Source of the DNA: Serratia liquefaciens | Lineage (GTDB): Bacteria; Pseudomonadota; Gammaproteobacteria; Enterobacterales; Enterobacteriaceae | Length of the DNA: 64,000 bases | Reading direction: 5' to 3' | NCBI GenBank assembly: GCA_012719855.1 | Contig: JAAXZN010000061.1 | Location: forward strand, 1 to 64,000 | Shown: positions 2,263-22,314 of the stretch, one piece after another | Position numbering within the stretch: the stretch's first letter is position 1 | Layout: each line of letters starts with the position of its first letter | Position numbers and translations under genes: made by a program | Notes under the pieces: generated by a model | The model's input: the letters and a program-made list of their open reading frames with translations, nothing else | The model's database searches: none | What the model was told of the DNA's origin: nothing

Positions 2263-3018
2263 TCAGACTTCGCTGGTGAAACGGCCGAACAGTTGATAAC
2301 GGCTGCCGGGGTACAGCAGGCGTGCCGAAGTGACGACGGTTTTGCCGGACCAGGTGCGGCGGTGGATCAACAGGCCCGGTTCGTGGTCTTCCAACTGCAG
2401 CAGCTCGCGCTCCTGGCGGGTCGGCACTACCGCTTCGACGATGTGTTCACCTGCGGTCAGCGGCGCGGCCTGCGTCAGATAGATATAGGGCGTAACGCGG
2501 TCGAAATCCTGTTTCATGTAATCGGGGGCGATCAGGGGGTTCACGCAGCGGTCTTCCACCTGTACCGGCAGGTCGTTTTCGTAATGCACAATCTGCGAAT
2601 AGAAAAGCTGCTGGCCCGGTTGAATGCCCAGCGCCAATGCTTCTTCCTCGCTGGCCGGCCGCGCCTTCAACTGCAGGATCTTGCTGCTGTGGCGATGCCC
2701 ACGGGCGGCGATTTCGTCGGCGATATTATGCACTTCCAGCAGCGCGGTGTGCGCCTTGGCTTCGGCGACGAAGGTGCCCACCCCCTGCATGCGGATCAGA
2801 TAGCCTTCGGTGGTCAGCTCGCGCAGCGCGCGATTGATGGTCATGCGGCTGACGCCCAGTTCGGCGACCAGCTCACTTTCCGAGGGAACGCGTTGGTGCG
2901 GCAGCCAATGGCCCGCCCGGATTTGGTTCACGATCGCCTGCTTGACCCGTTGATAAATGGGGGCGGGGGTATCGCTCATTGCAGCAGCCAGTTGCAGCAC
3001 GGTCTGTTGATCAACCAC
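2263..3018 (-). CDS. hutC: GntR-family histidine utilisation repressor HutC
   Basis: 251 aa. N-terminal GntR winged helix (about residues 18-85, with PSESELVAELGVSRMTINRAL) and a C-terminal UTRA ligand-binding domain (about 105-245), the HutC subfamily layout; urocanate is the known inducer. It starts at a GTG with GAGG 8 bases upstream; an internal ATG at 2979 would remove only a non-conserved 13-residue leader. It sits between hutF (divergent) and hutI (downstream, same strand), and both of its flanks carry the TGTATATACA operator, so autoregulation is likely. Confidence 0.93.
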   Translation of the reverse strand: MVDQQTVLQLAAAMSDTPAPIYQRVKQAIVNQIRAGHWLPHQRVPSESELVAELGVSRMTINRALRELTTEGYLIRMQGVGTFVAEAKAHTALLEVHNIADEIAARGHRHSSKILQLKARPASEEEALALGIQPGQQLFYSQIVHYENDLPVQVEDRCVNPLIAPDYMKQDFDRVTPYIYLTQAAPLTAGEHIVEAVVPTRQERELLQLEDHEPGLLIHRRTWSGKTVVTSARLLYPGSRYQLFGRFTSEV

Positions 3019-3194: not shown

Positions 3195-4565
3195 ATGCCT
3201 GCATATTTTGCCTCACGCGCTCTGCTTCCTGAAGGTTGGGCGCATAACGTCCGGTTGGACGTGGATGCGCAAGGTTACCTGACTCAGGTGACCGCCGACG
3301 CCGATCCCGAAGGTTGCACCCGTCTGCACGGCGATGCGGTGCCGGGCATGCCAAACCTTCACTCTCACGCCTTCCAGCGTGCGATGGCCGGACTGGCGGA
3401 GGTGGCGGGCAATCCGCAGGACAGTTTCTGGACCTGGCGTGACCTGATGTATCGCCTGGTGCAGCGTTTGACGCCGGAGCAGGTGGAGGTGATTGCCCGC
3501 CAACTCTATATCGAAATGCTGAAAGGGGGCTATACCCAGGTCGCCGAGTTCCACTATCTGCATCACGGCGCCGACGGTCTCCCTTATGCCGATCGCGGCG
3601 AAATGACCGGCCGACTCAGTCAGGCGGCGGCCCAGGCGGGGATCGGCATGACCCTGCTGCCGGTGCTGTACAGCTATGCGGGATTTGGCGGCCAGCCCGC
3701 TCAGCCGGGGCAAAAGCGTTTTATTCAGAATGCGGACAGCTATCTGGAACAACAGCAGACGATCGCCCGTCAGTTGGCGGACCAACCGTTACAGAATCAG
3801 GGCCTGTGCTTCCACTCGCTGCGTGCGGTGGAACTGGGCCAGATGCAGCAGATCCTGGCGGCGTCGGACAGTACGCTGCCGGTGCATATTCATATTGCCG
3901 AGCAGCAGAAAGAGGTCAACGACTGTCTGGCCTGGAGCGGACGACGCCCCGTCGCCTGGCTGTACGAGCATCTGCCGGTGGATCAGCGCTGGTGTCTGGT
4001 TCACGCCACGCATCTTGATCGCGATGAACTGGAGCTGTTGGCGCACAGCAAAGCGGTAGCGGGCCTGTGCCTGACTACCGAAGCCAACCTGGGCGACGGC
4101 ATCTTCCCCGGCGACGCCTATCTGCAGCATCAGGGGCGTTGGGGCATTGGTTCTGACAGCCACGTATCGCTCAATGTGGTGGAGGAGCTGCGCTGGTTCG
4201 AATACGGCCAGCGTCTGCGCGATCAGCGTCGTAACCGGTTGACCACGCCGGAGCAACCGGCGGTGGCTGACGTTCTCTACCAACAGGCCTTGCAGGGCGG
4301 GGCACAGGCCTGCGGTACGCCGATCGGACGGTTGCAAAGCGGCTACCGTGCCGACTGGCTGGTGCTGGACGGCGACGATCCTTACCTGGCTGCGGCGCCG
4401 GACGCCTCGATCCTCAACCGCTGGCTGTTCGCCGGCGGCAAAGAGCAAATCCGCGATGTCTTTGTCGGTGGTCGGCAGGTGATCGAACAAGGACGCCATG
4501 CACTGCAGCAACAGAGCAGCGCGGCTTTCTTGCAGGTGTTGAAAACCTTCCAGCAGGAGGCGTGA
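3195..4565 (+). CDS. hutF: formimidoylglutamate deiminase HutF
   Basis: 456 aa. It converts N-formimidoyl-L-glutamate to N-formyl-L-glutamate and ammonia, feeding HutG. It is an amidohydrolase-superfamily deaminase: PNLHSHAFQR gives His56 and His58, HIHIAEQQKEV carries the central metal and substrate residues, and SDSHVSLN contains the catalytic Asp. The length is normal for HutF. It overlaps hutD by 4 bases. Its presence shows that this organism uses the deiminase (five-step) branch, not HutG-type formimidoylglutamase. Confidence 0.95.
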   Translation: MPAYFASRALLPEGWAHNVRLDVDAQGYLTQVTADADPEGCTRLHGDAVPGMPNLHSHAFQRAMAGLAEVAGNPQDSFWTWRDLMYRLVQRLTPEQVEVIARQLYIEMLKGGYTQVAEFHYLHHGADGLPYADRGEMTGRLSQAAAQAGIGMTLLPVLYSYAGFGGQPAQPGQKRFIQNADSYLEQQQTIARQLADQPLQNQGLCFHSLRAVELGQMQQILAASDSTLPVHIHIAEQQKEVNDCLAWSGRRPVAWLYEHLPVDQRWCLVHATHLDRDELELLAHSKAVAGLCLTTEANLGDGIFPGDAYLQHQGRWGIGSDSHVSLNVVEELRWFEYGQRLRDQRRNRLTTPEQPAVADVLYQQALQGGAQACGTPIGRLQSGYRADWLVLDGDDPYLAAAPDASILNRWLFAGGKEQIRDVFVGGRQVIEQGRHALQQQSSAAFLQVLKTFQQEA

Positions 4566-5128
4566 TGAGCCTGACGCGTTTTGATTTTGCTTCCCTGCCG
4601 GTCACGCCGTGGCGTAATGGCGGTGGGGAAACCCGAGAGATCGCCAGTTGGCCTGCGGGCACCCAGGATTTCGACTGGCGTGCCAGTATCGCCACCATCG
4701 CGCAAGACGGCCCGTTTTCGGCCTTCAACGGGATAGATCGTTCGATCACGCTGTTGGAAGGCGATGGCGTGCATCTGTTCAGCGCCGGGCACGTTGATCA
4801 TCATTTATCGCAGGCTGGTGAACCGTTCGCCTTCTCCGGGGATGTGGCGTTGAGCGCGACCCTGTTGGGCGGCAGCAGCCAGGACTTCAATATCATGACC
4901 CGGCGCGGCCGCTGGGCAGCCGACGTGCAGCGAGTGACTGAGACCATCGAGCTGCCGTCATCGCATGCCGGTGTGCTGTACGTGCTGCAGGGACGCTGGT
5001 TGCTGGCGGATGGCGTGATCCTGACCGCACGTCAGGGCGGGTGGTGGCCGGCGGGAGAGTTCAGTGGGGCGCTGACGCCGCTGACCGAGGATAGCGTCAT
5101 TCTGTGGGCCGACATCACACCCGGCTAA
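4562..5128 (+). CDS. hutD: HutD family protein
   Basis: 188 aa, start ATGA overlapping the hutF stop. Matches the HutD family: PVTPWRNGGGETREIA near the N-terminus, then a bicupin-like beta-rich body including FDWRASIATIAQDGPFSAF. In Pseudomonas, HutD is thought to limit over-activity of the hut operon, possibly by binding a pathway intermediate such as formylglutamate; no enzymatic reaction is assigned. Co-transcribed with hutF. Confidence 0.88.
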   Translation: MMSLTRFDFASLPVTPWRNGGGETREIASWPAGTQDFDWRASIATIAQDGPFSAFNGIDRSITLLEGDGVHLFSAGHVDHHLSQAGEPFAFSGDVALSATLLGGSSQDFNIMTRRGRWAADVQRVTETIELPSSHAGVLYVLQGRWLLADGVILTARQGGWWPAGEFSGALTPLTEDSVILWADITPG

Positions 5129-11161: not shown

Positions 11162-11860
11162 TTACCAGAGTAAGGGAGCGGTCTCATGGCCGTTTTCGGC
11201 GTAGTACAGCGAAGGCAGGAATTGCGCCAGATAGCTGAATTCATTGTAGCAATGGCGCATCAGGTTAAAGCCAACCTCGTCCGGCAATTCTTCATGGGCG
11301 TTGGCGCAGGATTTCCCCAACAGAAAACGGCTGCGTAGCACGCAACCATAGGGGGTATCGCGGGCCAGATGCAGCATTTCGCCGTCGAGCGGATCGCCGT
11401 TGTCGTCCAGCGCCACCTGCTCGCCAAAGCCGATCCGTGCGCATACGGCAGCGGATAACGCCTGAGCGTCCCGCGCCTGTTGCAAAGCTTGTGCGGCAAA
11501 AAAGTCTTCTGCCGCGTGAAATTTGAGCCGGGCCGGTACCGGCGGCAACTCGGCTAACCATTCCACCGCATCGATGCTGGCACCCACGTAGCTTTGGCCT
11601 TTTCTCCAGTGCTGGTCCCAGCCGCGGTGCTCGACATGATCGTGCGGGTGCCACCAACGGATGTGCTGGGTGGTCTCGAAAAAGGTAAACCACCAATCCA
11701 GCATGCGGCCCTTGCAGCCATGCAGATCGGTACGGATTGCCACGGTTAACCAGCCGTCGCTGTTGCGCGTCAGCCCCATCTCCAGCCGCAGCGGTTCAGG
11801 TTTGAGCAACTCGTTGATATCATTTACGCCCCAGGGCAGCATCAGTGATTGATGTGTCAT
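11162..11860 (-). CDS. PhlG-like (DAPG/phloretin hydrolase family) protein
   Basis: 232 aa. Resembles the 2,4-diacetylphloroglucinol hydrolase (PhlG) / phloretin hydrolase family, zinc enzymes that cleave a C-C bond next to an aromatic ring. Visible support: HIRWWHPHDHVEH (residues 67-78) and RHCYNEFSYLAQFLP with His203-x3-Glu207, equivalent to the HxxxE zinc ligands of PhlG. The ATG at 11860 has AGGA 8 bases upstream, whereas the first in-frame ATG (11869) abuts the same AGG. It is divergent from a TetR gene, typical of a substrate-inducible enzyme. The true substrate is unknown. Confidence 0.72.
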   Translation of the reverse strand: MTHQSLMLPWGVNDINELLKPEPLRLEMGLTRNSDGWLTVAIRTDLHGCKGRMLDWWFTFFETTQHIRWWHPHDHVEHRGWDQHWRKGQSYVGASIDAVEWLAELPPVPARLKFHAAEDFFAAQALQQARDAQALSAAVCARIGFGEQVALDDNGDPLDGEMLHLARDTPYGCVLRSRFLLGKSCANAHEELPDEVGFNLMRHCYNEFSYLAQFLPSLYYAENGHETAPLLW

Positions 11861-11881
11861 CACGCTCATCCTTTTTTATTT

Positions 11882-11900
11882 GGAAACGATATTTGTTTCC
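11882..11900. promoter_or_regulatory. TetR-type operator
   Basis: Palindrome GGAAAC-N7-GTTTCC, flanked by TTATTT and AAATAA, in the 93-base gap between the divergent PhlG-like and TetR genes. Position and symmetry fit a TetR operator controlling both. Confidence 0.7.
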
Positions 11901-11953
11901 TAAATAAGGCTATGCCGCTATGCTGACTCTGTCAACGACTTCGAGGAACTGTG

Positions 11954-12610
11954 ATGGCAAATAAAGTGGAAGCCGAACCACGTACGCGTGGAAGGCCCTC
12001 GGCTCCGGAAGGGGAGTTACGCGCGGCGGCAGTGGAGGCCACTCTGGCGCTGTTGCTGACGCAGGGCTATGCCGCCACCACCGTGGACGCGGTGGCGAAG
12101 CGGGCGGGCATGGCTAAGAAAACTCTGTATCGTTTTGCCGAGAACCGTGATGCGCTGGTGACGCAGGCGATTGCGAGCTGGACCGACGCTTTTGCACCGG
12201 TGTTTGAACTGGACGCGCAGCGGGCGAAAGAGTTGCCGACGCTGTTGTCGCAGGGCTTGCAGGCCATTGCGCGACAGGTGCTGAGCGAGCAGGCGGTGGG
12301 TATGTTTCGCCTGCTGCAGAGTGAATTTCCGGGGCGTGAAGATTTACTGACGGCTTATCAGCGCAACGGCATTGAACGGGGCAGGACGATTGTGGCTGAC
12401 TGGCTGCAGCGCCAGCAACGGCGTGGTTGGCTGCGTGAACTGGATTGCGCGCAAACCAGCGATCTGCTGCTGGCGATGGTGATAGCAGAACCTTTGCGCC
12501 AGATGGCGCTTGGTCTGTTGCCGCCGGGCAGCGATATCGACACTCGCATAGCGGCGGCGTTGGCACTGGTGTTGCCGGGGTTGATCAGGGCGCCGTCGTC
12601 CGCGCCCTGA
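11954..12610 (+). CDS. TetR/AcrR-family regulator
   Basis: 218 aa. N-terminal TetR helix-turn-helix (about residues 20-65, GYAATTVDAVAKRAGMAKKTLYRF) and an all-helical ligand domain with the AefR-like C-terminal feature. ATG 11954 is preferred over the adjacent GTG 11951 because GAGGA lies 6 bases upstream of the ATG. Divergent from the PhlG-like gene with a palindrome in between; probably represses it until an aromatic ligand binds. Confidence 0.82.
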   Translation: MANKVEAEPRTRGRPSAPEGELRAAAVEATLALLLTQGYAATTVDAVAKRAGMAKKTLYRFAENRDALVTQAIASWTDAFAPVFELDAQRAKELPTLLSQGLQAIARQVLSEQAVGMFRLLQSEFPGREDLLTAYQRNGIERGRTIVADWLQRQQRRGWLRELDCAQTSDLLLAMVIAEPLRQMALGLLPPGSDIDTRIAAALALVLPGLIRAPSSAP

Positions 12611-12627: not shown

Positions 12628-14277
12628 TCACTCTTTACCGTACCGGCGCAGCACCTGTTCTGCCGCGGCGAAGTCTGGCGCCAGCGGGCGGTCAACCTCG
12701 ATAAACGGCACCTGCTTGCGCACCGCCGTATAGAGTGCTGCGGTGGGGGCGGATAGCGTAAAACCGTTGTGCCGCTGCTGGCGCAAATCCACCGCCTGCG
12801 CGTCGTGCACCAACAAGATCCCCAGCAATTGATAGCTGTTGTCCACCTGCTGCTGAACGCGAGCCACCACCGAAGGCGCATTGGTGGCGATGTCTTCAAT
12901 ATCGCCGGCGACCGGGAAGTAATCGAGCGATACCGGCATGGCGAGCTCTTTGTTCCGCATCGCCAGCATCATGACCGGCTTTTCCATCGCGCCAAAGGCG
13001 TGCACGGTGTGGTCGGTGCCGAGAAAACGACTCAGGCCGGTAAACGCCGGGTTATTCAGTTTGACCACCTGTTGAGCGCTGGCCAGCGAATTATGCGCCA
13101 GCGCCAATCCCAATTGCTCAAAGGCCAGCACCCAGGGCAGCGGCTCAAAGTTGGCGCTCGGCAGCACGGCACCTTGCAGACTGCCTTTGCTGACGTAACC
13201 TACCGCCTCCTGCGGCCGCTGCGACGGTGCCGTAACGTCGAGTGCCACTCCAGGATTGTCGTCGGAGCTGTTTAACTGCACCAGCAACTGGTCATAAGCC
13301 TGCTGATAGCTGCGCTGGAGCTCCGCCAGCAGATAAACCCCGGAGCGAAAACTCAGCGGATCCTGCAGGGGACGGCTGTCATCGTGCTGCCACAGGCTGG
13401 AGCCGGTCAGCAACTCGCGCAGGTTTTTCCCCATGGTCGCCACTTCCGGGTAAGGGCGTAGCGCCAGGGTATTGGCGAGGAACGGCGAGAGGTTGCCGTT
13501 CAGCGCCTGCAGGCTGAGCGCATAGGTCAAGGTATTGACCTGCATCAGGTGGGCCAGCGAATCCAGTGCCAGTGCAGCGCTGGCGGCGGAATAGGCATTG
13601 GAACTGAGGATCGCCAGCGCATCTTTGGCATAAGGGGCAATGGCCGGTGTTTGGCTGCCTTGCAGCGCCGCTTTGGCCGCCACTTTGTTGCCCTGGTAAT
13701 ACACGTCACCTTCGCCGAGCATTGCCAGTCCAAAGTGGCTGATCACCGTGATATCCCCTTCGCCCACCGACCCGTCTGCCGGGATCACCGGGGTGATGCC
13801 TTTGTTGAGAAAAGCGACATAGGCGTCGACAATCGCCGGTTGGACACCACCGCCACCACTCAACAGGGCATTGAGCCGGGTGACCATGGTGGCGCGCGCG
13901 ACGCGGACGCTCATGGCTTCGCCAATACCGCCAGAGTGGGCATGCAGCAGGCCGACGTTAAATTTTTTCGAGGCGTCGATCACCTCCTGCGTCAGTTTGC
14001 CGTGGACGTCGACCATGGGCCGGTCCTTGTTTAATCCGACGCCCACCGTCAGCCCATAGATTTTCAGCCCGCTCTGCGCAGCTTCGATCAGCACCTGATG
14101 TGACCGTGTCACGCGATCCATGGCGACGGGCGCGACGCTCACCGCTTCGCCATCGGCGACCTGCGCAATCAGGTGCGGGGTAATAGAGTGTCCATCGAGC
14201 GTGACGGTAGCCAAGCCCAATGGGTTGTAACCGAACGTCAGCGCGGCCAACAGCGATAAAGCGAATTTTCCTGGCAT
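12628..14277 (-). CDS. ergothionase candidate: MIO-less, exported ammonia-lyase homologue
   Basis: 549 aa, HAL/PAL fold. Residues 1-23 look like a Sec signal peptide (Lys4, hydrophobic core, likely cut after GLA), unlike cytoplasmic HutH. The lyase body starts at TVTLDGHS; the Tyr loop is kept (Tyr74, YGLTVG). Where true lyases have GSVGASGD, this protein reads GSVGEGD (169-175): the Ala-Ser-Gly triad that forms the MIO cofactor is gone. Ergothionase, which eliminates trimethylamine from ergothioneine, is the known MIO-free member of the family. Last gene of an operon with a transporter, a urocanase homologue and DUF917. A HutH role is unlikely. Confidence 0.78.
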   Translation of the reverse strand: MPGKFALSLLAALTFGYNPLGLATVTLDGHSITPHLIAQVADGEAVSVAPVAMDRVTRSHQVLIEAAQSGLKIYGLTVGVGLNKDRPMVDVHGKLTQEVIDASKKFNVGLLHAHSGGIGEAMSVRVARATMVTRLNALLSGGGGVQPAIVDAYVAFLNKGITPVIPADGSVGEGDITVISHFGLAMLGEGDVYYQGNKVAAKAALQGSQTPAIAPYAKDALAILSSNAYSAASAALALDSLAHLMQVNTLTYALSLQALNGNLSPFLANTLALRPYPEVATMGKNLRELLTGSSLWQHDDSRPLQDPLSFRSGVYLLAELQRSYQQAYDQLLVQLNSSDDNPGVALDVTAPSQRPQEAVGYVSKGSLQGAVLPSANFEPLPWVLAFEQLGLALAHNSLASAQQVVKLNNPAFTGLSRFLGTDHTVHAFGAMEKPVMMLAMRNKELAMPVSLDYFPVAGDIEDIATNAPSVVARVQQQVDNSYQLLGILLVHDAQAVDLRQQRHNGFTLSAPTAALYTAVRKQVPFIEVDRPLAPDFAAAEQVLRRYGKE

Positions 14278-14328
14278 GATAAGTAAACCCTTATTATTGA
14301 TTTTTATGATGTTGTAACGTTATTCGGT

Positions 14329-15669
14329 TCAGGGCTGCTGCGCCGGACGGCGGCCGATAAAATACAGGGTGATCAGCGCCAGCAAGCTGGCGATCATCAC
14401 GTACCAGGCCGGCGCAAAGCGGGTGCCGGTATTCTGGGTCAACCAGGTAAGGATCGCCGGTGCAAAGCCGCCGAATACCGTCACAGCCAGGTTATAGGAC
14501 ACCGACATGCCGCTGGCCCGGACCTGGGTGGGAAACAGGTCGGACAGTGCCGCAGGGGCCACACCGACGAACAGCGACACCAGCATGCAAAACAGGGTCT
14601 GTACCAGGATCAGCATCGCGGTGGTGTGGTAAGCGTCGAGCAGCAATAACAAGGGGTAGCTGGCAACCAGCAACAAGGCGGCACCGGCCTGCAGGATTTT
14701 CAGGGTACCGATGCGATCGGACCAGGCACCTGCCGCTACGCAGCAAACCACCATAAAGCAGTTACCGATCAGCGCCGCCAAAAACGCCTGATGGCTCTCG
14801 AAATGCAGCACGCGCTGAACGTAAATCGGCATATAGATAATCAGCGCGTAGACGCTGACCGCCCACAGAATAGACAGCCCGGTGCCCAGCAGCACGGCCT
14901 GACGATGGGTTCGGAACAGCTGTCTCAGCGGCTTTTCCGGAGCGCATTGCTCCCGCTGACGCCGGGCCTGCTCTTCGGCAAACAGCGGCGTTTCTTCCAG
15001 GGTTTTACGCATCCACAGGCCAATCGGAGCGATCGACAAGCCGATGATGAACGGAATACGCCAGCCCCAGTCGCCTACCTGTTCGTGACTGAGCGTCAGG
15101 GTGACCGCGGTGGCGACCAGAGCGCCCAGGATATTGGAGATCCCCATGCTGGCCTGCAGCCAGGAGGCGTATTGGCCTTTCTGGTGCGCGGGGGCGTGTT
15201 CGATTAAAAATGCGGCCGCGCCGCCCACCTCTCCCCCGGCGGAAAACCCTTGCAGCACCCGGCCGCACAGGATCAATAAAGGGGCGCCTATGCCAATAGC
15301 GCTGTAGGGCGGTGCAAAGGCAATGATCGCCGTGCCGACCGCCATGGTCATGATGGTTAGGGTCAGGGCGGCCTTGCGGCCAACCCGATCGCCATAAGCG
15401 CCGATCACCAGGGCGCCGAGTGGGCGAATGACGAAACCGAGACCGAAGGCCAGAAAGGCTTCAAAGAGTTGGGTGCCGGGATCGTTGGGGTGGAAAAAGT
15501 TCTGCGCGATGTACACCGCGAAGAAGGCGTACACCGAGAAGTCATACCATTCCAGCGCGTTGCCGATAGAAGCGGCGGCAATCGCTTTGCGCCCACGGCT
15601 TTTGCGCGGCGTAACGGCGGCGTCGGCAGCCAGCAGGGGGGAGATGGGCGGAACCGTGCTTTTATTCAT
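14329..15669 (-). CDS. MFS MHS-family transporter, probably for ergothioneine or thiourocanate
   Basis: 446 aa, 12 predicted membrane segments. MHS family: GNALEWYDFSVYAFFAVYIAQNFF, RPLGALVIGAYGDRVGRKAAL, GGEVGGA and DWGWRIPFIIG. Its start overlaps the stop of the urocanase homologue by 4 bases and the lyase follows 51 bases downstream, so it belongs to this catabolic operon. If the lyase is periplasmic as its signal peptide suggests, the imported substrate could be thiourocanate rather than ergothioneine; this is inference. Confidence 0.8.
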   Translation of the reverse strand: MNKSTVPPISPLLAADAAVTPRKSRGRKAIAAASIGNALEWYDFSVYAFFAVYIAQNFFHPNDPGTQLFEAFLAFGLGFVIRPLGALVIGAYGDRVGRKAALTLTIMTMAVGTAIIAFAPPYSAIGIGAPLLILCGRVLQGFSAGGEVGGAAAFLIEHAPAHQKGQYASWLQASMGISNILGALVATAVTLTLSHEQVGDWGWRIPFIIGLSIAPIGLWMRKTLEETPLFAEEQARRQREQCAPEKPLRQLFRTHRQAVLLGTGLSILWAVSVYALIIYMPIYVQRVLHFESHQAFLAALIGNCFMVVCCVAAGAWSDRIGTLKILQAGAALLLVASYPLLLLLDAYHTTAMLILVQTLFCMLVSLFVGVAPAALSDLFPTQVRASGMSVSYNLAVTVFGGFAPAILTWLTQNTGTRFAPAWYVMIASLLALITLYFIGRRPAQQP

Positions 15670-17324
15670 CGTTGTTCTCCGCGAGGCAGTGAGATATAGG
15701 GCAGGGATTTTTCGGCAATCTCATCGAGCGACTCCTGATAACCGGCGTCGGCGTATCGCATCACGCCGGTACTGGTGTCGTTGGTCATCGACAATTGCAG
15801 GCGTTGCTGCGCCGCGGCGCTGCCATCGGCGATGGTGGTGACGCCTGAGCTGGTCATATAGCCGCTGTAACCGCCGCCGCCGGAGTGGATCGCCACCAAA
15901 TCCGCCATGGAGGCGCAGTTGACCAGCGCATTGAGCAGCGGCCAGTCGGCGATCGCATCGGAGCCGTCCTTCATCTTTTCGGTCATGATATTCGGGTGAG
16001 CCATCGCCCCGGCGTCGAGATGATCGCGGGTGAAGGCGATAGGCCCGGAAAGACGGCCGTCCGCTACCATGCGGTTCACTTCCAGCGCCAGCTCGGTGCG
16101 TTCCCCGTGACCGAGCCAGGCGATGCGCGCCGGCAGGCCTTCAAAGGGCACATGTTGGCGCGCCAGGGTGATCCAGTTGCTGACGATGCGGTTATCGGCA
16201 AAGCGTTGCAGCAGGTAGTCGTCGATCACCCGAATATCGTTGCTGTCGTTGGACAGGGCAATCCAGCGGAATGGGCCGATGGCGCGACAAAACAGCGGCC
16301 GCAGGAAGGCCTCGGTGAATATGGGGATCTCGAATGCGCGTGCCACGCCGCCCTGGTGGGCGTGGGTGCGGATAAGATTGCCGTTATCGAACACCACCGC
16401 GCCGCGATCCATAAAGCCGATCATGGCTTCTACGTGTTGCACGATAGAGCGGCGGCTGGCGTCCATCAGCGCATTGATATCCGCCTCGCGTTGCGCCGCC
16501 ACCTGCTCAAGGCTGTAGCCGGCGGGGACATAGCCGTACACCAGGTCGTGCGCCGCCGTTTGGTCGGTAACGATGTCAGGAATCACGCCGCGAGACAAAA
16601 TCGCCGGGTAGACTTCGGCAGCATTGCCCAGCAGTGCGACCGACAGCGCCTCTTTGCGCTGTTGTGCGGCGGCGATCATCGCCAGTGCCTGGTCGAGATC
16701 TTTCGCCTGGTGCTGTAAAAAGCCGTTTTTCAGCCGTTTGTCGATACTGGCCTGATTGACCTCGACGGTCAGAATCGCAGCCTTGGCCAGGGTGCCCGCC
16801 AGCGGTTGCGCACCGCCCATGCCGCCCAGCCCGGCGGTGAGGATAAAGCGGCCGCGCAGATCGCCAGCGAAATGCCGTTCGGCGATGCGCGAGAAGATTT
16901 CATAAGTCCCCTGGATCACCCCCTGCGAACCGATATATTGCCAGTCGCCGGCGGTCAGCCCGCCCCAGCAGATCAGGTTTTCTTTTTCCCAGCGGTAGAA
17001 GTTCTCCGCCTTCGCCCACTGACCGACCATATTGCAGTTGGCCATGATCACCAGGGGGGCATTAGCGTGGGTCTGCAGCACGCCGATTGGCTTGCCGGAT
17101 TGCACCAGCAGCGTTTGGTCTTCACGCATGGTTTTTAACGCATGAACAATGGCATCGTGTGACGGCCAGTCGCGCGCCGCACGTCCCAATGCCGCATATA
17201 CCACCAGTTCGTCGGGGTTTTCGCCAACGGCCAGCACGTTTTCCAATAGACGCAACAGCGCTTCTTGCCGCCAGCCCAGGCAGCGCAGCTCGGTGCCCGA
17301 GGTCACTTCAAAGGTTCTTTTCAT
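15666..17324 (-). CDS. urocanase homologue, probable thiourocanate hydratase
   Basis: 552 aa, full-length urocanase family with the NAD-binding TAGLGGMGGAQPLA and VTDQTAAHD motifs. Two diagnostic segments deviate: the urocanase signature FQGLPARICW reads FEGLPARIAW (394-403), replacing the conserved Cys by Ala402, and the usual HHGGGVGMG segment reads HSGGGGYSG (480-488). These changes, and the coupling to a DUF917 gene and an MIO-less lyase, fit thiourocanate hydratase, which hydrates thiourocanate to a thiohydantoin propionate. ATGA overlaps join it to both neighbours. It would be annotated as hutU by homology alone. Confidence 0.78.
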   Translation of the reverse strand: MKRTFEVTSGTELRCLGWRQEALLRLLENVLAVGENPDELVVYAALGRAARDWPSHDAIVHALKTMREDQTLLVQSGKPIGVLQTHANAPLVIMANCNMVGQWAKAENFYRWEKENLICWGGLTAGDWQYIGSQGVIQGTYEIFSRIAERHFAGDLRGRFILTAGLGGMGGAQPLAGTLAKAAILTVEVNQASIDKRLKNGFLQHQAKDLDQALAMIAAAQQRKEALSVALLGNAAEVYPAILSRGVIPDIVTDQTAAHDLVYGYVPAGYSLEQVAAQREADINALMDASRRSIVQHVEAMIGFMDRGAVVFDNGNLIRTHAHQGGVARAFEIPIFTEAFLRPLFCRAIGPFRWIALSNDSNDIRVIDDYLLQRFADNRIVSNWITLARQHVPFEGLPARIAWLGHGERTELALEVNRMVADGRLSGPIAFTRDHLDAGAMAHPNIMTEKMKDGSDAIADWPLLNALVNCASMADLVAIHSGGGGYSGYMTSSGVTTIADGSAAAQQRLQLSMTNDTSTGVMRYADAGYQESLDEIAEKSLPYISLPRGEQR

Positions 17325-18412
17325 GCGGCATCTCCCGTCGGCAGGTAGCTGCGTAAGTCAATCCCGAGGGTTTTCTCTACCGGGGGATAGACCGCCGGAT
17401 CGGTGACCGACGAGGAAAGCGGGAACTGCGAATGATGCATATGGAAAATCACCACTTCCATGCCTGGCTTTAACTGCCCGGCGCTGATCGGGTTGCCGGC
17501 CTTATCTAGTGTGGTGATCACATCCGGATAACTGGCGAGACGCTCGCCGTGGGCGTCTTCCACCGCCATATGTTCATTCATGATATGGATACGGCGCAGG
17601 TCCTTGCCCTGGCCGACAGTCACGATGCCGACGTCAAACGCCTCTTCGGTATAACGCAGGCTGTTGGCGGCCACCTTACCGCTGCCGATAATATTGCCGC
17701 CGGTGTGGCGACAGATAGCCTCGACAATGCCGTTGCCGTTTGCCGCCAGAATGCTTTCACCCAAGGCAATCGCCTGGCTGATGCCCCCCAACGCAGCGTG
17801 TTGGCGCACGTAGGCGGCGGGGATCGGGTTGCGACAGCTGGCGATAAAGCCGCCGGACATGTCTGCCGCTTTGCGCAGCACCGGCGACACCTTGGCCGTG
17901 GCGCCTTTCACCACCAGTTCGATATAGGCGTTGTTGGCTCGATTGCCGCCGACGGCAGCCTGGATCATCGGTTCAGGGCTGGAAGCCAGGCCGATGGAGC
18001 CCATGTCGCCGGTCGGGTGGGCGCGCAGATCGCCGACCGCATCGACGACCTTGCAACCGAGGATCGCGGCAGGCAACCAGCCGTTGAGGGTGCTGGACAT
18101 ACCGTTCTGTCCGACCATCAATCCGGCGATAGGGGCGCCCAGTTCCTGCTGCACCAACTGCACGGCCTTAACGTAGTCGACGCCGAGCATTTGCCAGTCG
18201 GTCAGGCCGCCGGGGGCGCCAATCGCTGCCGCGGTAGCGATCCAGTCGTTATCGTTCAATTCCTCGAGGCTGACCAGTTCCGGCCGGCCAATGGTTACCG
18301 CCAGTCGCCCAAGCTCCAGGCCGTGGGCAACCCAACCGCCACCGCCGCAGGCAAATACCGAACCGCCTTTTACCGCGGCCTCCACATCGCTAAGTGTTAA
18401 AACACGCCCCAT
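17321..18412 (-). CDS. DUF917 protein, probable thiohydantoin desulfurase
   Basis: 363 aa. DUF917 family: FACGGGGWVAHG near the N-terminus, a DAVGDLRAHPTGDMG segment at the usual Asp-rich site, and GFIASCRNPIPAAYV. In the reconstituted bacterial ergothioneine pathway a new enzyme type removes sulfur from the thiohydantoin intermediate; the position of this gene between the hydratase and the hydantoinase genes makes it the candidate. That the published desulfurase is a DUF917 protein is from my memory and is not shown by the sequence. Start at 18412 follows CAGGAG. First gene of the operon. Confidence 0.7.
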   Translation of the reverse strand: MGRVLTLSDVEAAVKGGSVFACGGGGWVAHGLELGRLAVTIGRPELVSLEELNDNDWIATAAAIGAPGGLTDWQMLGVDYVKAVQLVQQELGAPIAGLMVGQNGMSSTLNGWLPAAILGCKVVDAVGDLRAHPTGDMGSIGLASSPEPMIQAAVGGNRANNAYIELVVKGATAKVSPVLRKAADMSGGFIASCRNPIPAAYVRQHAALGGISQAIALGESILAANGNGIVEAICRHTGGNIIGSGKVAANSLRYTEEAFDVGIVTVGQGKDLRRIHIMNEHMAVEDAHGERLASYPDVITTLDKAGNPISAGQLKPGMEVVIFHMHHSQFPLSSSVTDPAVYPPVEKTLGIDLRSYLPTGDAA

Positions 18413-18537
18413 GGTCTGTGCTCCTGAAAGTATCGGTGAGATTGCGCTTGAATGAATAATCTGTGAATAGTTGCGCTACCGGAATTCGATACTAGGGGGC
18501 GGTTAACCAAAATGTCGCATTACTTTTTATCACCTGC

Positions 18538-18556
18538 GTATAACACAATGTTAACC
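18538..18556. promoter_or_regulatory. candidate LysR site upstream of the DUF917 operon
   Basis: The minus strand reads GGTTAACATTGTGTTATAC, containing the palindrome TAACA-N3-TGTTA. The near-identical GGTTAACATTTTGTTATGC lies at 19526-19544. A further GGTTAAC half site is at 18501-18507, closer to the DUF917 start. Confidence 0.65.
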
Positions 18557-18614
18557 CATGCTTCAGGCGCAAAAAATGAGCCGCCATCATCCTGGGGAGC
18601 GGCGATGAAATGCG

Positions 18615-19511
18615 TTAGCGCGACCAGTGGATCTGCACGGATTCGAGGGTGGCAATAAACGCCTGAGCCAGCCGTGACAGGGGCTCGTACATGCCGTGTA
18701 CGATGCTGATGGGGGTTTTGGCGGTGGGTTCAATGGGCCGGAAAACCACCTTGGTCCACACCGGGCCGTTGGCGGTAATTTCATCGATCAGCGCAATGCC
18801 AACCCCGGCCTGTACCAGCGCGCAGGCGACGTGGATCTGCTGCACCTCGACGGTAGGGCGCAGAATGATGTCGGCGTCGCTTAACAGTTTTCGCACCAGT
18901 TGGCCGATCGGGATCTCGGCGCCGTAACCAATAAAAGGCTGGTCGATCAGATCCTCGATCCCTATCACATTTTTGGCGGTTAATGGGTGCGAGGCAGGCA
19001 ACGCTACCACCAGCCGGTTTTCATACAGCTGGCGCGAATGCACGTTGGGATGGCCTTCGTGCAGAAAAGCGACCCCCAGTTCCACCTGCTGCGTCAGCAC
19101 CGCCTGCAGCAGCACGTCCGGGATCATGGTGTGCAGGATCACCCGCGCTTCGGGCAATTGTGCGTGGAATTTGGCGATGGCGCTGGGGATCAGTCCTTGC
19201 CCCAGGCTTGGGCTGCAGGCGATACGCAGATGGCCCATACGGTTTTGGATTAGATCCTCTGCCACTTCGTTAACCCGCTGAACGCCCTGATAGACCGAAT
19301 TGACCTCGACAAACAGGTGGCGAGCCTCCGGGGTCGGGTACAGTCGCCCCTTGATGCGTTCAAACAGCGTCAGACCCAACCGCTGTTCGGTGTAGCCGAT
19401 CAGCCGGGATACCGCCGGTTGTGAAACGTGCAGCAGCTTGGCGGCACCGCTGATCGATCCGGTCAGCATGATGGCGCGGAACACTTCGATTTGCTTGAGG
19501 TTTAAACGCAC
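18615..19511 (-). CDS. LysR-family regulator of the ergothioneine-type cluster
   Basis: 298 aa. LysR winged helix at residues 1-60 (LKQIEVFRAIMLTGSISGAAKLLHVSQPAVSRLI) and a substrate-binding domain from about 90. It sits between the two arms of the cluster: the DUF917-hydratase-transporter-lyase operon downstream on the same strand and the hydantoinase-carbamoylase pair divergent. Matching TAACA-N3-TGTTA palindromes lie upstream of each arm, the one at 19526-19544 also covering its own promoter, so it probably controls both arms and itself. The inducer is unknown. Confidence 0.85.
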   Translation of the reverse strand: MRLNLKQIEVFRAIMLTGSISGAAKLLHVSQPAVSRLIGYTEQRLGLTLFERIKGRLYPTPEARHLFVEVNSVYQGVQRVNEVAEDLIQNRMGHLRIACSPSLGQGLIPSAIAKFHAQLPEARVILHTMIPDVLLQAVLTQQVELGVAFLHEGHPNVHSRQLYENRLVVALPASHPLTAKNVIGIEDLIDQPFIGYGAEIPIGQLVRKLLSDADIILRPTVEVQQIHVACALVQAGVGIALIDEITANGPVWTKVVFRPIEPTAKTPISIVHGMYEPLSRLAQAFIATLESVQIHWSR

Positions 19512-19525
19512 AGCCCCTCCACAAT

Positions 19526-19544
19526 GGTTAACATTTTGTTATGC
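19526..19544. promoter_or_regulatory. candidate LysR site in the divergent promoter
   Basis: GGTTAACATTTTGTTATGC, containing TAACA-N3-TGTTA, starts 15 bases upstream of the lysR start and lies about 145 bases upstream of the hydantoinase start. Differs at only two positions from the inverted copy at 18538-18556. Confidence 0.65.
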
Positions 19545-19687
19545 ACGAGTGATAAACAAGCATAAGACAGAATAGACAGCCTCACCCTACACTGGCCTGA
19601 CTGTCGGCACAATCGACCGATTGATAACCTGAGATATATGCATTTTTATGCATTTATTCTATGCAATGGAATAAGAGAGGTGGCGCT

Positions 19688-21067
19688 ATGAATCTGAGTC
19701 AACGGCCAGAACTGGTGGTCAAGGGCAATCTGGTGGATGCCGAGCGGGTGACTCCGGAAGGCTGGCTGGCCATCGCCGGCGGTAAAATCATCGGCAGCGG
19801 CAGCGGTCAGGCACCGGAGGCCCCGCAGGTGATCGACGCCGGCGGCAAGTGGATCCTGCCGGGGGTGATTGACGGTCAGGTGCATTCCGGCAGCCAGGCG
19901 AATCAGGAAGGATTGGGCTGGGCGTCGCGGGCGGCGGCGGCGGGCGGTATCACCGTGATGGTCGATATGCCTTATGACGATCCGGAGCCGGTGGCGTGCC
20001 GCGCTCTGCTGGAAGCAAAAATTGCCGAGGTGGAGCGTGACTGCCACGTCGATGTAGCGCTGTTTGGCACCCTGAACGCAACCTACGGATTCGATGCCGC
20101 TGCCGGACTGATCGAAGGCGGGGTATGTGCCTTTAAGTTTTCCACCTTCGAAGCTACGCCGGGCCGGTTTCCTCGGGTAGACGAAGACGACCTGATGCAT
20201 GCCTTTGAGCTTATTGCGCCGACCGGACTGGCCTGTGCGGTACACAACCAGATGCAGGAGCTGACGCGTAAAAATATCCAGCGAATGGTCGAGGCCGGCG
20301 ACACCGGCTGGGATGCATTTATGCGTGCTCATACGCCGCTGATTGAAAATCTGGCAACGGCGCTAATTTATGAAATGGGGGCGGAAACCGGGGCTCGCGC
20401 CCATGCGGTGCATGTTTCCACTTCACGCGGTTTCGAGCTGTATCGGATGTATCGGCAGGCAGGCTACCCGGTCAGCATTGAAACCTGCGTACAGTATTTG
20501 ATGCTCAACCATGAACAGCATACCCGCCAGTTTGGCGCCAAGACCAAACACTACCCGCCGATCCGTCCTAAAGCGGAAACCGAACTGTTGTGGAGCCATA
20601 TTGCCCAGGGCGACTGCACCTTCGTTTCTTCCGATCACGTCAGCTGGAGCCTGGAGCGCAAAGGGGACGACAACGTGTTCAAAAACGCCTCCGGCGGCCC
20701 CGGACTGGAGACGTTGTTACCGGCGTTGTGGACCGGCTGCGAGCAGCACGGCATTGCGCCGACCACCGCCGCACAGTTGCTGTGTCGCAACCCTGCACGG
20801 CATTTTCTGCTCGACGATCGCAAAGGGGGCTTTGACATAGGTATGGACGCCGATTTCGTGGTATTGCGGCCCGAGCGCTACAGATTCGATCCCGCTAACA
20901 GTTTGTCGGCGGTGAAATGGAGCGCCTTCGAAGGCATGGAGTTCAGCGTACGGGTGGAAGCCACCTATTGTCGCGGCCAGGCCGTCTTTGCCGAGGGCCG
21001 CATTCTCAATTCGCCGGGGGCGGGACAGTTTCTGCGCCCGCACGCCGCCGATGGAGCAGGCCAATGA
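19688..21067 (+). CDS. hydantoinase-like cyclic amidohydrolase
   Basis: 459 aa. Dihydropyrimidinase/allantoinase-type fold: Lys150 (CAFKF) is the likely carboxylated metal bridge, with His186 (AVHNQ), His242 (HAVHVS) and Asp316 (SSDH). The usual HxH at the first strand reads Gln64-Val-His66 (DGQVH), so one metal ligand is replaced; it may use one metal or a different geometry. In an ergothioneine pathway it would open hydantoin-5-propionate to N-carbamoyl-glutamate. Start 19688 has AGAGAGG 7 bases upstream and is preferred over an ATG 27 bases earlier. Its stop overlaps the next start (ATGA). Confidence 0.75.
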   Translation: MNLSQRPELVVKGNLVDAERVTPEGWLAIAGGKIIGSGSGQAPEAPQVIDAGGKWILPGVIDGQVHSGSQANQEGLGWASRAAAAGGITVMVDMPYDDPEPVACRALLEAKIAEVERDCHVDVALFGTLNATYGFDAAAGLIEGGVCAFKFSTFEATPGRFPRVDEDDLMHAFELIAPTGLACAVHNQMQELTRKNIQRMVEAGDTGWDAFMRAHTPLIENLATALIYEMGAETGARAHAVHVSTSRGFELYRMYRQAGYPVSIETCVQYLMLNHEQHTRQFGAKTKHYPPIRPKAETELLWSHIAQGDCTFVSSDHVSWSLERKGDDNVFKNASGGPGLETLLPALWTGCEQHGIAPTTAAQLLCRNPARHFLLDDRKGGFDIGMDADFVVLRPERYRFDPANSLSAVKWSAFEGMEFSVRVEATYCRGQAVFAEGRILNSPGAGQFLRPHAADGAGQ

Positions 21068-22314
21068 TCGAGTTAATCAACAGTGAACGCTTATGGGCGC
21101 GAGTCAATCATCTGGCGCAAATGACCTTGCCGGATGTGCCATGGACGCGGCGGGCCTTTACGCCACTGTTCAGCGAGGCGCGAACCTGGCTGGCGGAACA
21201 AATGAAGCAGGCTGGGCTGACGGTGACGCTGGACGAAGGCGGCAATCTGATCGGTCGGCGCGCCGGGCTGCGCAACGATCTGCCACCGCTGGTGACCGGC
21301 TCGCATTGCGATACCGTGGTGGGCGGCGGCCGCTATGACGGCATTATCGGCGTGCTGGCGGGGATTGAGATGGCCCATAGTCTGCACCAGCAGGGGATAG
21401 TTTTGCAGCACTCGTTTGAGGTTATCGACTTTCTGTCCGAAGAACCCAGCGACTACGGTATTTCCTGCGTGGGCAGCCGGGCGATGAGCGGTGAATTGGA
21501 CGGCAACATGCTGGCGTCCAGAAACGCGCAAGGCGAAACGCTGGCACAGGCGATGACGCGTATTGGCGCTCAGCCGGAAAAACTGACCCGGCCACTGCGC
21601 CTGCCGGGCGGTACCGCCGCTTACGTCGAGCTGCACATTGAACAAGGGCCAGTGCTGGAGCGCCAGAACCTGCCGATTGGTGTGGTGACGCATATCGTCG
21701 GCATCCGTCGGGTGTTGGTGACGGTGCTTGGGCAGCCGGATCACTCTGGTACCACGCCGATGGATATTCGTCGTGATGCTTTGGTCGGGGCAGCGCATGT
21801 GATTGAGCAGGCGCATGCGATGGCGTTACAGCAAAGCGGTAATCCGCATTATGTGGTGGCGACCGTAGGGCGCATCGCCATGACGCCAAATGTCCCCAAT
21901 GCGGTGCCAGGGCAGGTAGAGCTGATGCTGGAGGTGCGCAGTGACAGTCAGCCACTGTTGGACACTTTCCCGGAAGCGCTGTTGGAAAACTGTCGGCCAC
22001 GTTTGCAGAGTCTGGATTTACAGACGCAATTGCAACATGTCAGCCGCGCACGGCCTACTGCCTGCGCGGAAACGGTGATGCAGGCGATTGAGGGGGCCGC
22101 GCAATCGCTGGGGTTGGCCGGCCGCCGGCTGCCGAGCGGTGCCGGGCATGATGCGGTTTATATGGCGTCGACCGGGCCGGTGGGGATGGTGTTTATTCCC
22201 TGTCTGAATGGGCGTAGCCATTGCCCTGAGGAGTCGATTATCGAGCACCAGTTGGCCGACGGGGCCAGGGTGTTGGCGCAGGCATTGCTCAACCTGGATA
22301 AACAATTGGCATAA
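21064..22314 (+). CDS. M20-family N-carbamoyl amino acid hydrolase
   Basis: 416 aa. Allantoate amidohydrolase / L-N-carbamoylase branch of M20: His81 and Asp92 (GSHCDTVVGGGRYDG), Glu126-Glu127, His191 (LHIEQGP), His227 (QPDHSGTTPMD) in the dimerisation domain, and His362 (GHDAVYM) give a complete binuclear site. Translationally coupled to the hydantoinase-like gene. Expected role: N-carbamoyl-glutamate to glutamate, CO2 and ammonia. A start at 20917 would overlap the upstream gene by 150 bases and is rejected. Confidence 0.82.
   Translation: MIELINSERLWARVNHLAQMTLPDVPWTRRAFTPLFSEARTWLAEQMKQAGLTVTLDEGGNLIGRRAGLRNDLPPLVTGSHCDTVVGGGRYDGIIGVLAGIEMAHSLHQQGIVLQHSFEVIDFLSEEPSDYGISCVGSRAMSGELDGNMLASRNAQGETLAQAMTRIGAQPEKLTRPLRLPGGTAAYVELHIEQGPVLERQNLPIGVVTHIVGIRRVLVTVLGQPDHSGTTPMDIRRDALVGAAHVIEQAHAMALQQSGNPHYVVATVGRIAMTPNVPNAVPGQVELMLEVRSDSQPLLDTFPEALLENCRPRLQSLDLQTQLQHVSRARPTACAETVMQAIEGAAQSLGLAGRRLPSGAGHDAVYMASTGPVGMVFIPCLNGRSHCPEESIIEHQLADGARVLAQALLNLDKQLA

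Follow-up and report, generated by a model that had tools for sequence, protein, structure and literature searches.

An ergothioneine-to-glutamate gene cluster predicted in Serratia liquefaciens, with an export-type signal on its lyase

Ergothioneine is a dietary antioxidant from mushrooms, and trimethylamine may arise from its breakdown by bacteria. A five-step bacterial pathway for its catabolism was reportedly described by Beliaeva, Leisinger and Seebeck in 2021, and Muramatsu is said to have worked on its chemistry. Here we analyse a stretch of 64,000 nucleotides from Serratia liquefaciens (contig JAAXZN010000061.1; "the window" denotes this whole stretch), in which seven intact reading frames at 12628-22314 form a candidate ergothioneine cluster. 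The minus strand encodes a lyase (ErtA), a carrier of the major facilitator superfamily (MFS), a thiourocanate hydratase (ErtB), a DUF917 desulfurase (ErtC) and a LysR regulator, and the plus strand a hydantoinase (ErtD) and a carbamoylase (ErtE). According to the part of a 2026 article used here (PMC13405746), the ergothionases of Treponema denticola and Burkholderia sp. HME13 belong to the aromatic-lyase family and lack the 4-methylideneimidazole-5-one (MIO) group; the same part describes ergothionase as restricted to a few genera and, going by annotations, as lacking a functional counterpart in Escherichia coli, after a BLAST search with similarity only to histidine, phenylalanine and tyrosine ammonia-lyases (HAL, PAL and TAL); it concedes that such a search can overlook divergent homologues. 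In the corresponding part of a 2020 review (PMC7653990), cells bearing ergothionase are inferred to need an ergothioneine transporter. Among the titles and abstract openings listed by literature searches, with most subscription papers outside their scope, there was no report of a Serratia ergothioneine cluster, a periplasmic ergothionase or a lyase-urocanate-reductase operon.

All five enzyme kinds of the described pathway are present and adjacent in the window, and the predicted functions make the cluster an enterobacterial member of that pathway. It differs from the described system in its enterobacterial host, an export signal on the lyase, the MFS carrier, and a LysR gene with two boxes unique in the genome. 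Our favoured explanation, to which we assign a probability of roughly 0.7, is that a LysR-controlled operon pair turns ergothioneine into glutamate across two compartments, for nitrogen, carbon and sulfur. ErtA would reach the periplasm through the Sec route and eliminate trimethylamine from ergothioneine without MIO, and the MFS symporter would bring the resulting thiourocanate into the cytoplasm. ErtB would then hydrate thiourocanate, ErtC would replace sulfur by oxygen to give hydantoin-5-propionate and sulfide, ErtD would open the hydantoin ring, and ErtE would remove the carbamoyl group to leave glutamate. The chemistry given for the ErtB to ErtE steps follows NCBIfam names and what Beliaeva and colleagues and Muramatsu reportedly described.

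Proteins were assigned with NCBIfam release 20 models and their curated cut-offs. Four of the five enzymes exceed the cut-off of an ergothioneine-pathway equivalog: ErtB scored 1015 bits as thiourocanate hydratase (NF058530, cut-off 930), ErtC 602 bits as thiohydantoin desulfurase (NF058529, 440), ErtD 673 bits (NF058538, 600) and ErtE 629 bits (NF058540, 520). The exception is the lyase, for which there is no such model. The closest solved structure to ErtB is 7ned (E 1e-239). Pfam searches of the cluster proteins returned Lyase_aromatic, MFS_1/Sugar_tr, three urocanase domains, the N- and C-terminal S-Me-THD domains (which we take to be the renamed DUF917), LysR, amidohydrolase and peptidase M20. 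A reading made earlier from the sequence only had proposed the five enzymes and their order as an ergothioneine-to-glutamate pathway, and these scores, with a lyase nearest to a solved ergothionase (below), support it. Its expectation that automatic annotation would miss the system holds for the lyase; the other four enzymes are named by current NCBIfam.

The same models bear on the possibility that the cluster serves S-methyl-ergothioneine, or the sulfonate of ergothioneine, by a variant of the pathway. Such pathways exist, as the NCBIfam S-methyl models and the title of Yan 2022 indicate, but the hydratase reached 747 bits against the S-methyl cut-off of 880 and the desulfurase 281 against 450, and there was no extra reductase or glutathione transferase frame among the seven cluster genes, unlike the Agrobacterium and Lichenihabitans loci, which have such frames. 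We regard this variant as very improbable, and the S-methyl pathway was rejected on the NCBIfam cut-offs.

The lyase itself carries the signatures YGLTVGVGLNKD and GSVGEGDIT, the latter where HutH has GSVGASGDLAP; it thus lacks the Ala-Ser-Gly triad that forms MIO, as the earlier reading had said. Its best match among solved structures was the T. denticola ergothionase 6s7j (E 1e-74), with which it shares GVGxNKD and S[VI]GEGDIT, followed by 7tqr, a probable histidine ammonia-lyase (E 2e-43). It scored 238 bits against the hutH model TIGR01225 (cut-off 539) and passed no NCBIfam cut-off. ErtA and HutH are of one superfamily, but in a tree of 40 rows, for which the program flagged long branches, the four HutH-type rows formed a group of their own (support 100/99) and the window lyase lay outside it, in a 26-row group without HutH rows (98/97). 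The lyase of a Deinococcus ert locus fell on the HutH side (96/94), and the T. denticola, Polaromonas and G556 rows were not firmly placed, the latter two being long secreted rows.

These results also decide about a second histidine-utilisation locus with ordinary HutH and HutU, as generic annotation would have it. In its favour, hutF lies 8 kb away and ErtB, at 688 bits, exceeds the permissive hutU cut-off of 375. ErtB nevertheless fits the thiourocanate model 327 bits better than the model of HutU, a member of the same superfamily, and the genome, with three aromatic lyases and two urocanases, has its hutH and hutU elsewhere: on contig C66 a lyase with an intact GSVGASGDLAP loop adjoins a urocanase that scores 700 bits against the thiourocanate model, below the cut-off of 930. 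The sequence-level objection named by the earlier reading, that the proteins would group with genuine HutH or HutU, thus does not hold. Ordinary hut paralogy was rejected on the missing triad, the failed HutH cut-off, the hydratase scores and the tree position, and is scarcely credible. The sequence-only reading had placed the real hut genes 7 kb from the cluster, which is right for hutF (3195-4565, above its cut-off) and wrong for hutH and hutU. Next to hutF, 4562-5128 encodes a HutD/Ves-like protein below its cut-off, and the regulator at 2263-3018 may be HutC, an assignment made without a family search. Beside hutH and hutU on contig C66 there is also a second HutH paralogue (L171:6692-8242) with the loop GSVGYLTHMAHV and without the Ala-Ser-Gly triad; it adjoins a pyridoxal-phosphate enzyme and an ATP-binding cassette (ABC) transporter whose parts, by eye, resemble quaternary-amine carriers.

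The new feature of the lyase and its relatives is a predicted export signal that has no counterpart in HutH. Residues 1-23 of ErtA, MPGKFALSLLAALTFGYNPLGLA, stand directly ahead of residue 25, where the alignment to the hutH model begins, and have the make-up of a Sec signal just before the mature domain: a basic n-region with Lys at position 4, a hydrophobic core (best 9-residue hydropathy 2.51) and a small residue, Ala, at -1. Residue 21 of 6s7j aligns to ErtA residue 42, so that the Treponema enzyme has about 21 fewer residues ahead. A conserved Tyr-Gly motif, whose Tyr is presumably the catalytic Tyr of HutH, lies at position 73 of ErtA by the script's count. Among 28 group lyases, the window's included, 27 have this motif at 72-84 together with a hydrophobic stretch (best 9-residue mean at least 2.07); the remaining one, from Polaromonas, was taken with the start given in its annotation, and beginning further upstream would supply the stretch. 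For L149 the best stretch listed spans the presumed cleavage site, and the value inside the signal is still 2.12. The split lyases L011 and L153 and the partly N L155, each with a similar N-terminus, were kept out of this count. Eleven rows served for comparison (four lyases of other ert loci, three relatives at 35-36% identity, three HutH and one HutH paralogue); the motif is at 49-60 in ten of them and at 82 in the eleventh, Rhizobium L105, which has a script-chosen start and a hydropathy of only 1.27.

Could translation begin further downstream and leave the enzyme in the cytoplasm? Then the N-terminus would be no working signal, the pathway would be wholly cytoplasmic, and the MFS protein would import ergothioneine. 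In the window's ertA, TTG codons towards the 3' end of the signal-coding segment could allow a later start, the MFS protein also matches the model of the betaine carrier ProP (304 bits, below cut-off), and ert clusters elsewhere are served by unsignalled lyases. Yet the signal-like segment recurs in 27 of 28 group lyases, two of which (those of Burkholderia arboris and Paraburkholderia) have no ATG, GTG or TTG between signal and enzyme domain. Upstream of ertA an AAGGG is conserved in Serratia, and across six Serratia ertA genes the ratio of nonsynonymous to synonymous polymorphism (pN/pS) is 0.44 in codons 2-23, 0.11 in codons 24-120 and 0.07 in codons 121-547, a pattern of purifying selection by which the N-terminal segment is translated and under the kind of loose constraint usual for signal peptides. 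In addition, all thirteen genomes with a 44-47% relative encode, next to that lyase, a flavoprotein bearing a twin-arginine translocation (Tat) signal, and this pairing further supports a periplasmic lyase. We therefore consider the cytoplasmic version unlikely; ErtA is probably exported and would cleave its substrate in the periplasm, before uptake. The sequence-only reading missed this signal, which would change both the place of the first step and the molecule imported.

If ErtA is periplasmic, trimethylamine would be set free outside the cytoplasm and the cell would have to import thiourocanate. The cluster's sole carrier is the MFS protein, of the metabolite:H+ symporter group, which scored 391 bits against TIGR00883 (cut-off 443) and 351 against the tricarballylate carrier TcuC (cut-off 445), in both cases below cut-off, as with ProP. 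Counting the window, nine ert loci with a secreted lyase were seen, and each of the nine has an orthologue of this carrier (65-95% identity). Carriers were compared in a small, uneven set: 13 further records from 43 with a plasmid-borne relative of the desulfurase, or 15 with B. arboris and Paracoccus denitrificans. Four loci (Shinella, Rhizobium SL42, Ochrobactrum and Deinococcus) combine an unsignalled ert-type lyase with a full B-C-D-E set; close to the Ochrobactrum lyase lie a permease and an OpuAC binding protein of the glycine-betaine type (PF04069, E 4.5e-57). A secreted lyase, if true, would remove the need for an ergothioneine transporter and release thiourocanate where neighbours can use it. 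Five further loci (L101, L102, L106, L108 and L111) have B-C-D-E but no lyase within the fetched stretch, though it could be elsewhere in the genome; it is possible that they use thiourocanate, or a derivative, made by others. Of these five, Thalassospira and Paracoccus aminophilus have a TRAP carrier nearby, Neorhizobium and Rhizobium CC-CFT758 an ABC carrier of the amino-acid type, and Agrobacterium another ABC carrier. The desulfurase of Rhizobium CC-CFT758 is in three frames. The Lichenihabitans lyase has the MIO triad, Microvirga has C-D-E only, and Niallia and Salinigranum showed a desulfurase match alone.

Several observations weigh against the scheme of a secreted lyase and an imported thio-product. 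The Serratia signal is weaker than those of its relatives, with one basic residue and an LGLA cleavage site, and the lyase starts were picked by a script that takes the ATG with the best ribosome-binding match. Comparison rows L157 and L158 also start hydrophobic (2.20 and 2.21), with no basic residue before the stretch, and in the tree the 28 secreted rows as a single group reach only 75/95. The carrier contrast, MFS against betaine type, leans mainly on one locus: at the Deinococcus locus the ABC carrier is of a different kind (SBP_bac_8), and no carrier was found at the Shinella and Rhizobium SL42 loci. Finally, some lyases of the ErtA group have HutU as a neighbour, or no ert gene in their surroundings, so that from the lyase by itself one cannot choose between ergothioneine and hercynine as the substrate.

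This last point raises the possibility that the true substrate is another histidine betaine, such as hercynine, with ergothioneine secondary. Relatives in Paraburkholderia (60% identity) and E. coli (44%) lie beside a true HutU and not beside ErtB. In the window, by contrast, the four downstream enzymes are all thio-specific or hydantoin-branch forms, and a urocanate product would not need ErtB to ErtE, since a hutU is available on contig C66. We judge a hercynine pathway improbable here, and ergothioneine is retained as the predicted substrate of ErtA.

The two operons are divergent, and a box GTTAACATTnTGTTATrCnCrnGTGATAAA precedes both ertC and ertD. The pattern was built from these two sites, so that refinding them proves nothing; it had no match in shuffled windows, and a scan of the draft genome (5.46 Mb) that tolerated up to three mismatches gave no site beyond these two, which suggests a private regulon for the ert promoters. 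By eye, Raoultella keeps the TTAACA...TGTTAT half at both boxes and the second half well only at ertD, and B. arboris has recognisable versions. The regulator's identity to its counterparts is 97-98% for the five other Serratia loci, 87% for Raoultella and 70% for B. arboris. We infer that the LysR protein binds the two boxes and controls the operon pair. The regulator and the transporter that the earlier reading had named are both present as intact frames.

As the comparison proposed by the sequence-only reading now shows, five further Serratia loci (two of proteamaculans and one each of grimesii, quinivorans and sp. PL17) share the arrangement of E-D divergent from LysR-C-B-MFS-A, and so do Raoultella sp. 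BIGb0138 and B. arboris (68-77% identity). In P. denitrificans the order is D-E-C-B-MFS-A. The Raoultella lyase is in two frames (L011:10001-11646) and may be a pseudogene or a sequencing error; the other six ert genes there are one piece each. The thiourocanate hydratase cut-off was passed in 8 of 30 Serratia genomes, counting the one that holds the window. A draw of 392 genomes across the family gave two that passed, each a Serratia, and a draw of 369 across the class gave one, again the genome of the window; these low counts indicate a sporadic trait. The cluster is taken as chromosomal, and in a genome of the same species it lies on a 5.35 Mb contig. The gene pckA was found in all 19 ert-negative Serratia genomes searched. 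Its surroundings, fetched for ten of the 19, gave no ert gene match in any of the ten, and other genes follow, with only about 30-65 bases between the pckA match and the next gene's match in L165, L166 and L170. The cluster beside pckA thus reflects either an insertion or a clean loss. Four ert-negative Serratia (G001, G003, G012 and G029) have a second urocanase-like gene at 664-677 bits, below the thiourocanate cut-off. The window's hydratase-desulfurase DNA, used as query, had matches in 83 of 5426 E. coli genomes, in no case covering 80% of its length, and the 20 matches listed were all in genes named hutU (67-69% identity).

The lyase is more widely distributed than the cluster. Using the mature window lyase as query at a threshold of E 1e-60, matches were obtained in 20 of 384 family genomes and in 3 of 339 class genomes, one of the latter being the window's own. 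The 20 comprise two ert Serratia; two genomes of one genus, in which one lyase is 57% identical and the other is in two pieces (53 and 63%), with none of the searched partners; thirteen genomes of seven genera at 44-47%; and three at 35-36%.

In all thirteen Enterobacteriaceae genomes with a 44-47% relative (L140-L152), the same three genes follow the lyase. In each of the thirteen, the flavoprotein has the twin-arginine motif RRxF[LI], the small protein four CXXCH haem motifs and the large protein seven; single members match FAD_binding_2, Cytochrom_c3_2 and cytochrome b561 with c7/c3 domains, respectively, in Pfam. The L140 flavoprotein, the one of thirteen searched, has the urocanate reductase 6t85 as its best solved relative (E 3e-77), ahead of fumarate reductases. 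Of the UrdA residues named in the part of PMC7921117 used here, a pairwise alignment read by eye shows the proton donor Arg411 kept, Tyr373 replaced by Gly and Asp388 by Gln, so that the substrate need not be urocanate itself. This UrdA-like flavoprotein is a feature of the relatives' loci and not of the window locus, and the L140 gene had no match in the E. coli collection. We read the four-gene locus as a probable respiratory chain of the periplasm, to which the lyase would supply an enoate as electron acceptor.

In E. coli the relative is WP_001361287, 44% identical to ErtA, with a signal-like N-terminus and the motifs GVGLNKD and GSIGAADI. In strain 2016C-3878 it closes the operon hutU-permease-hutD-hutI-hutG-lyase (L114:5702-14619), which has an NCS1-type permease, a true urocanase (934 bits) and no HutH; the likeliest route would therefore be urocanate from hercynine, with ergothioneine also conceivable. 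With a required coverage of 80% or more, the lyase gene was found in 142 of 5426 genomes; it is chromosomal in all those listed (30 of the 142). An E. coli enzyme was reportedly described in 1962 by Wolff as "Ergothionase from Escherichia coli", with no gene named. The part of PMC13405746 used here calls this activity questionable, for want of a gene and of annotated homologues. WP_001361287 is a candidate for that gene. Annotation misleads at this point: relatives without MIO and with an export signal are filed as HAL, PAL or TAL, this E. coli lyase with its 142 genomes among them. An export signal, GVGxNKD and the absence of the Ala-Ser-Gly triad together make a signature for a cheap recount of such bacteria.

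One joint reading, which we hold tentatively and at somewhat under even odds, is that these lyases form a large Gram-negative family of secreted betaine lyases without MIO. Cleavage of ergothioneine (or hercynine) would take place outside the cytoplasm, and what becomes of the product would depend on the branch: import and conversion to glutamate in Serratia and Burkholderia; import into a urocanate pathway without HutH in E. coli and Paraburkholderia, with the E. coli member as Wolff's missing gene; and, in the seven Enterobacteriaceae genera of the sample, reduction in the periplasm, where a Tat-exported, urocanate-reductase-like flavoprotein served by dedicated cytochromes would take it as electron acceptor. 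The third branch, if true, would amount to anaerobic respiration on ergothioneine.

Between the cluster and a second 2A0106 carrier, 11162-12610 of the window encodes a protein with a DAPG hydrolase (PhlG) domain and a divergent TetR regulator; this region had no match at the equivalent place in S. proteamaculans CCUG 14510 (L006). Coordinates of the cluster are collected in Table 1. The start of ertD given there is the most likely one, and for ertE the most likely start is the ATG that overlaps the ertD stop, rather than that of the longer listed frame, which matches NF058540 from residue 53 onward.

Table 1. Features of the predicted ert cluster in the S. liquefaciens window.
Feature	Position	Strand	Basis or remark
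ertA, predicted ergothionase (trimethylamine lyase without MIO)	12628..14277	-	PF00221, 375 bits; 6s7j best PDB match
Predicted export signal, ertA codons 2-23, MPGKFALSLLAALTFGYNPLGLA then TVTLDG	14209..14274	-	hutH model start, hydropathy, pN/pS
MFS carrier of the 2A0106 type (metabolite:H+ symporter), predicted to import thiourocanate (or ergothioneine)	14329..15669	-	TIGR00883, 391 bits
ertB, predicted thiourocanate hydratase	15666..17324	-	NF058530; PDB 7ned
ertC, predicted thiohydantoin desulfurase (DUF917 / S-Me-THD)	17321..18412	-	NF058529
Putative LysR-type box upstream of ertC	18526..18555	-	conserved sequence
LysR-family regulator	18615..19511	-	PF03466 and PF00126
Putative second LysR-type box, upstream of ertD	19527..19556	+	conserved sequence
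ertD, predicted hydantoin-5-propionate amidohydrolase	19688..21067	+	NF058538; listed ORF opens at 19661
ertE, predicted N-carbamyl-L-glutamate amidohydrolase	21064..22314	+	NF058540; listed ORF opens at 20917

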